Source of the DNA: Bacilli bacterium
GTDB taxonomy: Bacteria; Bacillota_I; Bacilli_A; ML615J-28; CAG-698
Direction of reading: 5' to 3'
DNA length: 49,564 nt
Assembly (NCBI GenBank): GCA_017617065.1
Contig: JAFZWP010000015.1
Coordinates: 1-49,564 of the forward strand
Under the pieces are notes generated by a model. It searched no databases, had not been told where the DNA came from, and was given only the letters and a program-made list of their open reading frames with translations. Of the stretch, positions 10,257 through 14,509 are shown piece after piece (within the stretch, counting starts at the first letter, position 1; each line of letters begins with the position of its first letter). The position numbers and the translations under genes were made by a program.

Positions 10257-10283
10257 TAAAAAACAAGTCTATTTCTAGACTTG
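10257..10283 (-). terminator. Terminator of the sigma/anti-sigma/subtilase operon
   Basis: CAAGTCTA pairs with TAGACTTG around a 4-base loop, with a T run on the minus strand. The stem is close in sequence to the terminator at 14533-14563. Confidence 0.8.
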
Positions 10284-10294
10284 CTTTTTAAATC

Positions 10295-12454
10295 TTATTT
10301 TCCAAATGGTAAATTGTCTTCTTCTTTTTTTACTGCAAACGGAATATAATTATTAACCATTTTTTTATTATTTAAATGAATAAACGATAACGTACCATTC
10401 AAATAAGCATCAATGTCTGCATCTGCTAACACTATTACTCCATTTGGTAATATATAACTTCCATTAATAGTTCTTGGAAGATTGTTTGAAGTAAATGGGA
10501 CAATTCCCATGGCTGCTGGGCCCCCACAAATTATGCAAGTCGCATATTGTTGGCCAGGGGGAATGGTCCCTTGGGCTACTGCATGAACTTCTGTATACCA
10601 ATCATCACAAGCGCAAAATACAGTATGTTCTGTATAATTGCGCCACGAATATGTATCATATGTATGATAATGTTTTGAAATTTGCGTGGTAATTGTTCCA
10701 CTTTGAGAATCATTAGCAAACTTTACTCTTAAATAATATGTACCAGTTGATAAATATTTAGGGAAATGGACATTATTATTAGAATTGTTTAAATCATTAT
10801 AGCTTAATTGATTATAGTTACTATCATATAATGTTACGTTAAGTGGATATGAAGCTGATATATTAAAATCATATCCTCTAGAATATGTAACATTTAGTTT
10901 GTAAAAGCCATTATCATTAGTGAAATAATCATTATTTGCTAATGCTGTGTGACTAATATTAATAGTAGTAATACTATTATTAAGAGTACATGGTGTAAAA
11001 GCATGATTAGTTAGGACATATTTAACTGCACCATATGCATTTAACTTCTTAACATATTGATTTTCTAAACTTCCACCAGGACCCGTTGGTGCCTGAATAA
11101 CTATATTATCTGCTCCTTCTAATATAGCGGTTTTTAATTGAGATGCTGTTAGATTCGGATTGATAGACAATAATAATGCAGCAACACCTGTAACGTGAGG
11201 CGCCGCACATGATGTGCCATTGAAAAGTGAATATGCTGAAGAGGTTGATGAATTAGTCGTTATACAATCGAATACCATTAGGTTGGTTTCTCCTCCACCC
11301 GGAGCAAAAATACTTACTGAACTACCAAAATTTGATGATTTCGTATCACTCCATATGGATCTATTGCCACTACTATCAATTGCACCAACAGAAATTAGAT
11401 TATTTAAGTTAAATGCACTTATAAACGAATAGTTATCTAGATTATTGCCATCATTACCGACAGACCACACAAAAAGGCCCTGATATTCATATACTGCTGC
11501 TAAAACACCAAAGTTTGTTCCAAATCCACTTACGCTATAGTTAAGTACAGATATTCTTGAACTACTATCCCACGAATCACGAGCATTTATAATTGCTGCA
11601 ATAACAGAATCAGAATCATGGTGACCTGATCCACTGCTGTCGCTCACGGTTTGCAATGGTACAAGTGAAACTTTATGATTTATACCGGTCACACCAGTAT
11701 CATTATCGCCAACAGCGCCTACTATTCCAGCGACCCTTGTTCCGTGGCCACCATAATCATCAATAGTCGTAGTATTATTGTTATAAAAATCATATCCAGT
11801 TACCACATTCGCATTCAAATCTTCGTGAGAAGCAATACCGCTATCAATAATCCCAACTCGAACATCAAAAGTACCACGAGTGAATTCCCATGCTTCATCT
11901 GCAGCAATTCCACTAGAACTATTTAACGCCCACTGGAGTTGGAAAAAAGGATCATCAGGCGTTATTGAATCGGGTTCATAACTATAATTAGGCCCAACAT
12001 AACACACCTCGCTTAATAATTCGACCTTGCTAACAATTTTCAAAACTTCTTCCTTTGATTCTGAATTTAGAACTGCTTTGATGATTTGCCTAAATTTAAT
12101 TTTGCTTAAATAATTGGCTGTCTCAGAATTAGATAAATCCAATGTATTATCATCTATCAATATTCTACTCGGAACCTCTGACAAGTCTTCGAGCGAAATT
12201 ATTTCCTCAATTTTGTAAAGTTTTTTTGAAACATTTTCCGACACTCCCCTATATTGACTATACTCTGATTTAAGCACAATAATTATAGAATCTGTAGAAA
12301 AGCATTGATTAATGTCTATATCTATTATTACTTTTTCATCATCAAGTATTTGCTTAGATATTGTAGCAGCACTAACATTTAGTGTAAAAATAATAGGAAA
12401 AAGAAACAAAACAGCAACAATCAAAGATGCCTTTATTAAAATCTTTTGCATCAT
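10295..12454 (-). CDS. Secreted subtilisin-family serine protease (S8) with C-terminal extension
   Basis: 719 residues. A signal peptide (hydrophobic to about residue 28, cleavage near VSA-A) is followed by an I9-like propeptide (about 50-158: FSTDSIIIVLK ... KFRQII ... YVGPNYSYEP) and the S8 catalytic domain with intact triad: Asp in VGIIDSGIASHED near 203, His in GGHGTRVAGIVGA near 236, Ser in NGTSCAAPHVTGVAAL near 413. A beta-rich segment (about 495-590) looks like a PPC-type domain, then comes a short tail with CACDDW and CIICGG. There is no LPXTG or transmembrane anchor, so it is probably released or loosely bound. It is the last gene of an operon led by an ECF sigma factor, suggesting sigma-controlled secretion. 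Confidence 0.9.
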   Translation of the reverse strand: MMQKILIKASLIVAVLFLFPIIFTLNVSAATISKQILDDEKVIIDIDINQCFSTDSIIIVLKSEYSQYRGVSENVSKKLYKIEEIISLEDLSEVPSRILIDDNTLDLSNSETANYLSKIKFRQIIKAVLNSESKEEVLKIVSKVELLSEVCYVGPNYSYEPDSITPDDPFFQLQWALNSSSGIAADEAWEFTRGTFDVRVGIIDSGIASHEDLNANVVTGYDFYNNNTTTIDDYGGHGTRVAGIVGAVGDNDTGVTGINHKVSLVPLQTVSDSSGSGHHDSDSVIAAIINARDSWDSSSRISVLNYSVSGFGTNFGVLAAVYEYQGLFVWSVGNDGNNLDNYSFISAFNLNNLISVGAIDSSGNRSIWSDTKSSNFGSSVSIFAPGGGETNLMVFDCITTNSSTSSAYSLFNGTSCAAPHVTGVAALLLSINPNLTASQLKTAILEGADNIVIQAPTGPGGSLENQYVKKLNAYGAVKYVLTNHAFTPCTLNNSITTINISHTALANNDYFTNDNGFYKLNVTYSRGYDFNISASYPLNVTLYDSNYNQLSYNDLNNSNNNVHFPKYLSTGTYYLRVKFANDSQSGTITTQISKHYHTYDTYSWRNYTEHTVFCACDDWYTEVHAVAQGTIPPGQQYATCIICGGPAAMGIVPFTSNNLPRTINGSYILPNGVIVLADADIDAYLNGTLSFIHLNNKKMVNNYIPFAVKKEEDNLPFGK

Positions 12455-12472
12455 TTACCATCCTTTTTATAA

Positions 12473-13953
12473 CTAATCACCTGTTTGAATTAGGTTTGGA
12501 GCAACATATTTCACGAAATTTAGTTGCTCAACCACTCTTACTGCTTCTATTACTGAAGCTTTATCAGTTGGCTTTATGTTTATTACAATTATTTGCCTAA
12601 AATTATTCAATAGTTCTTGGTATTCAGGCTCATAAAAAGATGCAGGAGGAGTTGTGCCAGAAAGATATTCCATATTTGTAGCATTTGCAAGACCAAAAAC
12701 GCTTATATCCAATTCAGGATATCTCGTAGTTCTTTTTAACACAACTATGATTTTATCGAGTGTAAATTCATCATCTTCATTTCCTTGCCATATTATTTTT
12801 TCATCATTAATGTCAAAGTTTTCTAAAATCCATATTGACAATAAATCATCATCCGTTACAAACCCTTTTTCGTAAGCTTCGCTTAATTTATAAAAATTGT
12901 TTCCAGTCCACAAAAGTATTTCTCTGTTGGAAAATCTATATGAAAATGTGACACTTCCTATAACAACGTTTTTTTCTAATCCCGTATCGCCGTGATCTGC
13001 TAATTTAATTAATACAACATCATACCCATTGTAATTGCCATAGTACTTTTCTATTAAAATATTGTTGATTGGATAGTTACCACTTAAATATGCATCTATA
13101 TAACTTTGTTTGATTTCATATTCTTTTGTGACATAATTCTTTACAAAATCTACTTTTTCTAATGGTATTAATGAAATAAATAATGATTTTAACTTTACAT
13201 CATAAACACCAGCACCATATCTTTCATTTATGCCAATTAAAATATATCCACTATCATATACTCGTATTTGTATTGTCCTTGAATCATCAGCACCTGCAAG
13301 AAAGAAAGTATACTCATTATTGTAGTCTTCACTAAGAATATCATTATATTCGCTGTGAAAGAAATCTACTTTATCAATTATATCAATATATGGCAAGTCG
13401 AATCTTGATAATAAATCTTTGTAAAATGCTTTATCGACAGTCCAAATTACTGAACTGTATCTGCCTTCCATCATACGGATATTTACTATTTCATTTTGAT
13501 TAAAAATTTTATCTAAAGATATATAGCTAGTATTCAAGTTTAAACAATCATTCCATCTGGCTGATTTTTTTAAATTATCAATAGCAGTATTTTTTTCATA
13601 TGATAACTTTGATAAATCCAACTTTTCTTGCTTATCAGCAGAAATTGTTTGAATATCTTTTTCAATTTCTATTATCTTCGTTATTTTTTCTTCGTCGTTA
13701 TCAATATATTCTAAATTATCAATTGATCTATTAATTTTAGCTATAGTGTTCGTTTTATTATTAATGAGTATAATGCCTAAAATGATAGCAGCAATTACTA
13801 TAACCGAACTAGATAAAACACATGTTAACTTAATCATCCGTTTGTTATATTTATTTTTACTTGCTTTGCACGCTTCAAGAACTTTATCTTTATTACCCTC
13901 TATATTAGGAATATCAAGTTTTAAAAGTTCTTCTAATTCTTTATCTTCCATCG
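12473..13953 (-). CDS. Membrane anti-sigma-like protein with extracytoplasmic propeptide-like domain
   Basis: 493 residues from the ATG with AGGAGG seven bases upstream, overlapping the sigma-factor gene by 13 bases. It has an acidic cytoplasmic head (about 1-40), one membrane segment (about 41-64), and a long outside part that contains a coiled-coil-like stretch (about 70-130) and a segment of the type YYGNYNGYDVVLIKL ... FYKLSEAYEKGFVTDDDL seen in many secreted proteins. The last 100 residues (about 396-493) parallel the propeptide of the neighbouring subtilase: FTLDKIIVVLK vs FSTDSIIIVLK, NFRQII vs KFRQII, and VVEQLNFVKYVAPN vs KVELLSEVCYVGPN. Topology and position indicate an anti-sigma factor. 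The sigma-binding motif is not recognisable by eye. Confidence 0.7.
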
Positions 13954-14441
13954 CTTGCCCTCCTTTTAACAATTATTTCTTTTAACTTAATTTTCGCCCT
14001 ACTAAGCCTTGTGGTAGCGTTACTTTCACTTATTTTTAAAATTCTAGCTATTTCTTTAACACTATAATTATTGAAATAACGAAAAACAATTATGGTTTTA
14101 TAACTCTTGTTAAGCAAATTAACACACTCGTATATGTCATCATTATCATTATTTCTATAAGAGTCAGGAAGATTATCAATGTATTCACTACTAGTAAGTG
14201 CCTTCGCATTTTTCTTCTTGCGCAAAAAATCTAGTGATTTATTGATTGTTAAACGTATTAACCAATATTTATCGTTATCGTCATTACAAGTTTTATGAGT
14301 TTGATAAAACTTAATAAATACTTCTTGCACAATGTCTTCAGCATCAAAACTATCATGCGTATAGCCATATGCTATATTGAATAATTCTTTAAAGTATTGA
14401 TCAAAAACGCGCGTAAATTCTAAATCAGTCAATTGCTTCAT
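13941..14441 (-). CDS. ECF-type RNA polymerase sigma factor
   Basis: 166 residues, typical of group 4 sigma-70 proteins. Region 2 reads FKELFNIAYGYTHDSFDAED then IVQEVFIKFYQ (about 17-50); region 4 with its helix-turn-helix is near 115-155 (YNNYSVKEIARILKISES as FNNYSVKEIARILKISES, then TTRLSRAKIKLKE). The ATG follows AGGAGG. It is co-transcribed with the anti-sigma-like gene and the subtilase, which are therefore its likely control partner and output. A candidate ECF-type promoter upstream suggests autoregulation. Confidence 0.92.
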   Translation of the reverse strand: MKQLTDLEFTRVFDQYFKELFNIAYGYTHDSFDAEDIVQEVFIKFYQTHKTCNDDNDKYWLIRLTINKSLDFLRKKKNAKALTSSEYIDNLPDSYRNNDNDDIYECVNLLNKSYKTIIVFRYFNNYSVKEIARILKISESNATTRLSRAKIKLKEIIVKRRASDGR

Positions 14442-14474: not shown

Positions 14475-14509
14475 ATATATAAAACGTTTCAAAGTAACAA
14501 AATGTCACA
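14475..14509 (-). promoter_or_regulatory. Candidate ECF-type promoter of the sigma operon
   Basis: On the minus strand TGTGACA (14503-14509) is followed after about 16-17 bases by CGTTTTATATA (14475-14485). No good sigma-A pair is present, while a TGTnACA-like -35 with a CGT-containing -10 is the general look of ECF promoters. The assignment is by eye only. Confidence 0.35.

Follow-up and report, generated by a model that had tools for sequence, protein, structure and literature searches.

A subtilase-propeptide-type domain at the outer end of a likely anti-sigma factor encoded beside a secreted subtilase in a Bacilli bacterium

The stretch analyzed here, termed the window, comprises positions 1 to 49,564 (49,564 nucleotides) of contig JAFZWP010000015.1 from assembly GCA_017617065.1 of a gut-dwelling Bacilli bacterium (GTDB lineage Bacteria; Bacillota_I; Bacilli_A; ML615J-28; CAG-698). 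It contains an operon of three genes, all on the minus strand, for an extracytoplasmic function (ECF) sigma factor, a membrane protein that is likely its anti-sigma factor and a secreted subtilase (Table 1), as the first-pass annotation of the window had described. The main finding is that the C-terminal tail of the middle protein is homologous to the class of propeptides to which that of the neighboring protease belongs. The resemblance noticed in the first-pass annotation is confirmed, the origin of the tail is corrected and the proposed function appears plausible from the sequence; if the predicted binding holds, the protein would be an enzyme-sensing anti-sigma factor of an altered type.

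Pairwise BLASTP of the tail against the propeptide of the neighboring subtilase aligns only 36 residues, 16 of them identical (E 7e-6 for this single comparison), and the full-length match therefore depends on profile comparisons. Profile A1, built from five stand-alone tails and nothing else, was searched against 43 genomes of the order, with E-values given per genome. This profile matches the propeptide of the window's own subtilase at 4.0e-11 and further subtilase propeptides in the order, the best of them at 1.2e-12. In addition, HHalign joins the tails (5 sequences) and subtilase propeptides (6 sequences) over 110 columns at 98.9 % (E 1.8e-17), whereas the highest value among 30 column-shuffled control profiles was 1.2 %. 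With the profiles, the homology is beyond doubt at the level of sequence. The predicted structure of the tail is ferredoxin-like (beta-alpha-beta-(alpha)-beta-alpha-beta) with a predicted local distance difference test (pLDDT) value of 91.3. The Pfam family Inhibitor_I9 (PF05922) is not among the 13 families listed at E<=10 for the 16 members of alignment A2, a listing that is incomplete for such sequences, as the HMMER filters drop most weak matches. For the window tail, the listing contains a single family, that of the Fervidolysin prodomain (Fervidolysin_NPro-like, PF22148; 14.4 bits against a cut-off of 21, E 0.053), which matches two of the 16 members, at best with 0.0013. Because Inhibitor_I9 is unlisted and the Fervidolysin model stays below its cut-off, the domain is named here a subtilase-propeptide-type domain and is not filed as I9. 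Of the first-pass claims on this homology, the short motifs quoted for both segments read as stated, the parallel of about 100 residues extends over the 110 profile columns but not through the pairwise alignment, and the structure prediction that it proposed for the tail segment gave a confident fold; 'I9-like' was right in kind and not by name, since the profile check suggested there lists no Inhibitor_I9 match for the tail at E<=10.

Tail type and protease type are coupled. One clade of tails (98/94) unites the window tail with P0013 and with the tail of a lipoprotein from G039, a genome of another family of the order, and a protease clade (96/92) unites the window protease with the protease adjacent to the G039 tail and with a protease of G001, a genome of the same genus; the two clades are compatible. 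The nearest tail is that of the P0013 lipoprotein (74-77 % identity), encoded on a 782-base contig, followed by that of the G039 lipoprotein. Past the tail's stop codon in G039, the same frame leads into the remains of a protease with 51-55 % identity to that of the window, of which a degraded propeptide and the beginning of the catalytic part are left; a related tail thus stands ahead of a decayed homolog of this protease there as well. The co-occurrence of this tail type with this protease type therefore extends to two families within the order. That the tail arose as a recent copy of the neighbor's propeptide was considered and is unsupported by the tree.

The sigma protein, a small protein with sigma-70 regions 2 and 4, lies above the cut-off of the sigma70-ECF superfamily model. 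Its partner matches no Pfam family at E<=1, including no RsiV or RsgI domain, and shows the features expected of an ECF anti-sigma factor: it is encoded in one operon with the sigma factor and has a single transmembrane (TM) helix with the N-terminus inside (topology judged by eye). Together with paralogous sigma-partner pairs at G000:C1, G001:C4 and G023:C88, position and topology suggest that the middle protein is an anti-sigma factor, whose inhibition of the sigma factor is putative. The genome also contains a gene for a site-2 protease (PF02163, 1.8e-62). Outside the membrane, the ectodomain shared with the paralogous proteins has AlphaFold2 pLDDT block means of 48-85, and the following YYG domain, the anti-sigma copy of which matches no Pfam family, is of a type that also occurs on subtilase-partner lipoproteins and fused to subtilases. 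The subtilase gene starts 18 bases past the anti-sigma stop codon, and its active-triad motifs were located at Asp204, His237 and Ser415, with the oxyanion Asn334.

In mesophilic bacterial subtilases, the propeptide serves as chaperone and inhibitor, according to the account in the available portion of PMC10580911. Because a tail of the propeptide class is placed outside the membrane on the anti-sigma factor, has a free C-terminus and stands beside the matching protease, the best reading is that it docks into the active site of the adjacent subtilase. This reading is held tentatively, as something that may well be so. Besides homology and pairing, it draws on the C-terminal position of the domain in stand-alone proteins and their adjacency to subtilases in the order, on the partner modules and fused proteins of the subtilase survey (all given below) and on the site-2 protease gene. 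The anti-sigma factor would then be both a membrane-bound inhibitor and a sensor of the protease, with a tail probably acquired not long ago from a type found on lipoproteins. Once the tail is occupied or cut, cleavage of the anti-sigma factor and hence release of the sigma factor would change, as with lysozyme and RsiV, and the sign of the feedback could be either. Stand-alone propeptide inhibitors of subtilases are exemplified by POIA1 and yeast IB2, in which a propeptide-like domain with a free C-terminus acts in trans; these proteins are soluble, whereas the domain described here is attached to a regulator and Inhibitor_I9 is unlisted. The closest precedent is RsiV, which, in the parts of PMC5014341 at hand, engages lysozyme at its active-site pocket, inhibits the enzyme, is needed for activation of sigma-V and is cleaved as a result. 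The likeness comprises an ECF anti-sigma factor, an outer part in the active-site pocket of an enzyme, inhibition and sigma release by regulated proteolysis (PMC5014341, same parts); here, the binding, inhibition and release are putative. RsiV differs in that it senses lysozyme, whereas the protein described here would sense the subtilase of its own operon through a propeptide-type domain and has no Pfam family. The RsgI proteins of cellulosome bacteria are similar in that the outer module of an anti-sigma factor detects what the controlled enzymes act on; that module, however, is a carbohydrate-binding one that detects polysaccharide (both as covered in the available sections of PMC12484212), and here it is of the protease pro-part type and no RsgI Pfam domain is present. 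Subtilase domains also occur in the genetic context of ECF54 sigma factors, as far as the consulted part of PMC8999054 goes. Sensing of an enzyme through its inhibition by an anti-sigma factor is known for lysozyme and RsiV. If the docking reading is true, a regulator carrying a pro-part-type inhibitor of its own operon's protease would form a direct product-sensing loop for secreted proteolysis, both halves of which are defined and short enough for in vitro testing. It would also illustrate an origin route for such sensors, in which a ready-made inhibitor-enzyme pair moves in and the inhibitor half fuses to the regulator.

Several findings weigh against this reading. The tail shares only 30 % identity with the neighbor's propeptide in the 16-row alignment A2 and is not its sister in the tree, where it groups most closely with domains at the C-terminus of lipoproteins. 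Foldseek and VIA searches against the PDB returned generic ferredoxin-like chains, with no propeptide among the best 50 of each. Fusion of the tail to an anti-sigma factor was found in one genome only: the anti-sigma factor of the syntenic G001 locus ends past the YYG domain, without the tail and with no intact protease after it, and P0001, which is 98 % identical to the window anti-sigma factor over the 75 % covered, ends past the YYG domain without the tail as well. No subtilase adjoins 14 of the 18 stand-alone proteins with the propeptide-type domain, and YYG domains are not confined to the vicinity of subtilases, with 47 matches spread over 18 of 43 genomes. The first-pass proposal of an outer domain like the neighbor's propeptide stands as regards the domain's outside location (by predicted topology), its place at the very C-terminus and its homology to the propeptide class; the nearest kin of the domain turn out to be lipoprotein domains, and relatives of this anti-sigma factor lack it. 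A generic domain found equally without a protease neighbor had been named there as what would speak against the idea, and the 14 copies without an adjacent subtilase go part of the way toward this.

The chief rival explanation, which is possible but on balance doubtful, is that of a partner without signaling: the tail tethers the subtilase, folds it in trans or restrains it at the surface, the anti-sigma factor merely replaces a lipid anchor, and sigma release proceeds via other ectodomains. It draws on a survey of 24 propeptide-bearing subtilases besides the window's, read with their neighbors, from which six S8 open reading frames (ORFs) without a same-frame propeptide match were excluded. 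In two of the 24 (G001:C9 and G041:C4), a YYG domain is fused ahead of the propeptide, which gives YYG-propeptide-S8 in a single protein with the first two modules ordered as at the end of the anti-sigma factor. Among the 22 non-fused subtilases, 21 have a same-strand neighbor within 400 bp with a lipoprotein call (17) or a signal-peptide/TM call alone (4); the lipoprotein and signal-peptide calls come from a crude home-made pattern, and the background for the former is 71 of 669 ORFs of the surveyed loci, partners counted in. For 21 of the 24 (G014 through YYG at 1e-3 only), at least one of the modules YYG, FDK and stand-alone propeptide is present on an adjacent or fused partner. The three exceptions are G210 and two G028 genes whose neighbors are leucine-rich-repeat-type lipoproteins and which have YYG proteins at a greater distance. 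Two subtilases read once this rule had been framed (G503 and G513) both adjoin a YYG lipoprotein and fit it. The modules, none of which exceeds a Pfam cut-off, occur in the combinations FDK and YYG (G358, G503), FDK and tail (G023), YYG-YYG-tail (G014) and YYG-tail (the window anti-sigma factor), and the survey thereby yields a set of interchangeable anchored partner modules for this group of Bacilli subtilases. The lipoprotein partners probably tether, fold in trans or restrain the subtilases at the surface, and the anti-sigma factor seems to fill the partner slot in the window. The presence of such partner genes at nearly all non-fused subtilases of this type, together with the position of the tail's nearest relatives on lipoproteins, favors an anchoring role without signaling, as does the interaction of the dentilisin lipoprotein PrcB with the protease PrtP reported in the available part of PMC8167434. 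This role leaves unexplained why the fusion hit the regulator of the same operon instead of staying a lipoprotein, and the YYG domain is already present in the anti-sigma relatives P0001 and G001.

The dentilisin operon prcB-prcA-prtP of Treponema denticola likewise combines a lipoprotein partner gene with a surface subtilase, and, as described in the consulted sections of PMC8167434, it has no sigma factor. The window subtilase matches PrtP below cut-off (3e-19). FDK denotes a domain around 'FFKDKTLVIFY' in a lipoprotein family adjoining these subtilases (L100, L101, L104-L108, L136, L153, L025). An identity of these lipoproteins with PrcB, suggested by a likeness, is unsupported: PrcB_C (PF14343) exceeds its cut-off in none of the 43 genomes of the order and is listed for none of 10 neighboring proteins scanned at E<=0.1. 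Additionally, runs of YYG proteins (five in G288; L138 7988-10484) and a duplicated pair of subtilase and YYG lipoprotein (G241; L139 4729-8142) lie beside these subtilases.

A further, rather unlikely elaboration is a substrate-competition sensor, in which the anti-sigma factor would hold the mature protease at the cell surface; a foreign protein would compete, the tail would be freed or cut, the anti-sigma factor would be cleaved and the sigma factor would raise protease levels. If true, the outside protein supply would be read via the occupancy of the cell's own enzyme.

An accidental fusion, in which the tail arrived with a pair of lipoprotein and subtilase genes recombining into the locus, without having been selected for any function on the anti-sigma factor, is a shade less probable still; the history of the locus bears on it. 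The G001 locus is syntenic on both sides (blastn identity 86.5 % along 3378 bp on one flank and 78.1 % along 6072 bp on the other), and the tail and subtilase make up the stretch that does not align with it. Since neither the same-genus locus nor the 98 % identical anti-sigma factor has the tail, the fusion is probably recent. In G001, a remnant of the 5' end of another subtilase gene, consisting of a signal-peptide-like stretch and a propeptide start, follows right after the anti-sigma gene (13.5-14.5 bits against <=7.1 in 200 shuffles). The idea that the domain was gained with the first protease of the locus is rejected in its simple form, because G001 lacks the tail and yet retains this remnant, which comes from a different subtilase gene. 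Most simply read, recombination brought a lipoprotein gene and its subtilase partner into an older locus that already had sigma, anti-sigma and subtilase genes, and the lipoprotein part would then have supplied the anti-sigma factor with its present end. Window positions 10260-10314 match L020 9837-9891 (92.7 % over 55 bp), where the end and terminator hairpin of the subtilase gene correspond to the end and terminator of a 604-aa gene of G001; a repeated terminator thus lies at the right edge of the insert and points to local recombination. This sequence, the single occurrence with tail-less close relatives and the variable third-gene slot of these sigma operons would suit an accident, whereas an uninterrupted frame runs through the entire domain as far as its natural end, the structure is modeled with confidence, and tail and protease types are paired in G039 as well. 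The G001 sigma frame is shifted at a run of T (L020 9237-9740), which may reflect decay after protease loss, phase variation or a sequencing error. Among the anti-sigma relatives P0001-P0008, the N-terminal module is similar, in some nearly constant, and the C-terminal outer domains differ, as if the sensor part were exchanged by recombination.

It is very unlikely that the tail serves another kind of sensing, as a general ferredoxin-like ligand domain or as a receptor of a foreign protease. The A2 profile matches the propeptide-type domain in 28 of 395 genomes of the class. In all 18 stand-alone proteins read, the domain is C-terminal, with 1-23 residues beyond the profile end (5-11 in 13 of them), and the chain therefore stops about where a subtilase would enter its catalytic domain; the 17 proteins besides the window's all have a crude lipoprotein or signal-peptide call. 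Five of the 18 (four from G172, one from G349) are weak and lack the Pro-Asn motif. Excluded from this count were L023 7455-7766 (script label 'alone'), which is a subtilase remnant, degraded or truncated fragments (G032, G040, one in G038 and two in G028 at contig edges, and a split gene of G018), and G014:C34 and G036:C1, which resemble transposase helix-turn-helix proteins. A subtilase, decayed in one case, adjoins four of the 18, all within the order (4 of 11 there), for which the chance probability is about 3e-9 by a rough gene count, or 7e-7 if one same-genus case is left out. The many copies without such a neighbor show that the module is not tied to one and, with the generic fold matches, would fit another ligand. 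Its readable sequence kin, however, are either propeptides of subtilases, intact or degraded, or domains at the C-terminus of secreted or anchored proteins, and the trees pair the tail specifically with the protease. In G005, a stand-alone propeptide of 167 aa with a signal-peptide call (L095 9308-9811) closely resembles the propeptide of a subtilase encoded on a different contig (L105 8851-12285) and is possibly a trans-acting inhibitor or a truncated copy.

An assembly artefact joining the anti-sigma gene to a lipoprotein-subtilase stretch is barely credible: the assembly has 24 contigs and 5.11 % contamination, and the window protein is absent among the protein-search matches listed, but gene order and 78-87 % identity to G001 are kept at both flanks, the join is in frame, and a subtilase remnant occupies the same place in the G001 locus.

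Table 1. Features of the operon and its surroundings in the window.
Feature	Position	Strand	Basis
ECF-type sigma factor, 166 aa	13941..14441	-	Pfam Sigma70_r2 2.4e-14, Sigma70_r4_2 1.5e-13
Likely anti-sigma factor, 492 aa	12473..13951	-	ATG at 13951, overlaps sigma gene end; position, overlap, topology
Single transmembrane segment, residues 42-65, basic side cytoplasmic	13757..13828	-	by eye from sequence
Ectodomain common to paralogous anti-sigma proteins, residues about 126-263	13163..13576	-	profile ASE
YYG domain, residues 295-373	12833..13069	-	profile matches
Subtilase-propeptide-type tail, residues 379-492, runs to stop codon	12476..12817	-	profiles, model, tree
Subtilase, 719 aa, signal-peptide-like start	10295..12454	-	Peptidase_S8 4.6e-40
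Subtilase propeptide, residues 41-157	11984..12334	-	propeptide-type profile 3e-26
Catalytic domain, residues 198-449	11108..11863	-	Pfam
Subtilase C-terminal domain, common to other subtilases and third gene of paralogous sigma operon (G023)	10346..11014	-	profile SUBC
Candidate ECF-type promoter of operon, TGACATTT-N13-CGTTTTA	14480..14507	-	pattern built from this site
Stretch unaligned with syntenic G001 locus (tail and subtilase)	10264..12841	.	blastn flanks

The putative promoter of the operon is suggested by its sequence: no second exact match to the pattern is listed in the genome itself, and both blocks also occur upstream of the sigma gene in G001. The C-terminal domain of the subtilase, which possibly serves surface attachment, contains a C-x-C and C-x-x-C pair and a 'NGSYILPNGVIVLADADIDAYLNGTL'-type end that is common to other subtilases and to the third gene of the G023 operon. 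Third genes with domains of the subtilase system follow other sigma/anti-sigma pairs as well (L024 7511-10519; L022 8071-12528): in G023 (L024), a secreted protein with the C-terminal domain of the subtilase, and in G000:C1 (L022), a 1004-aa YYG lipoprotein. The third such operon, G001:C4 (L029), encodes a 644-aa protein without a match to a domain of the subtilase system.

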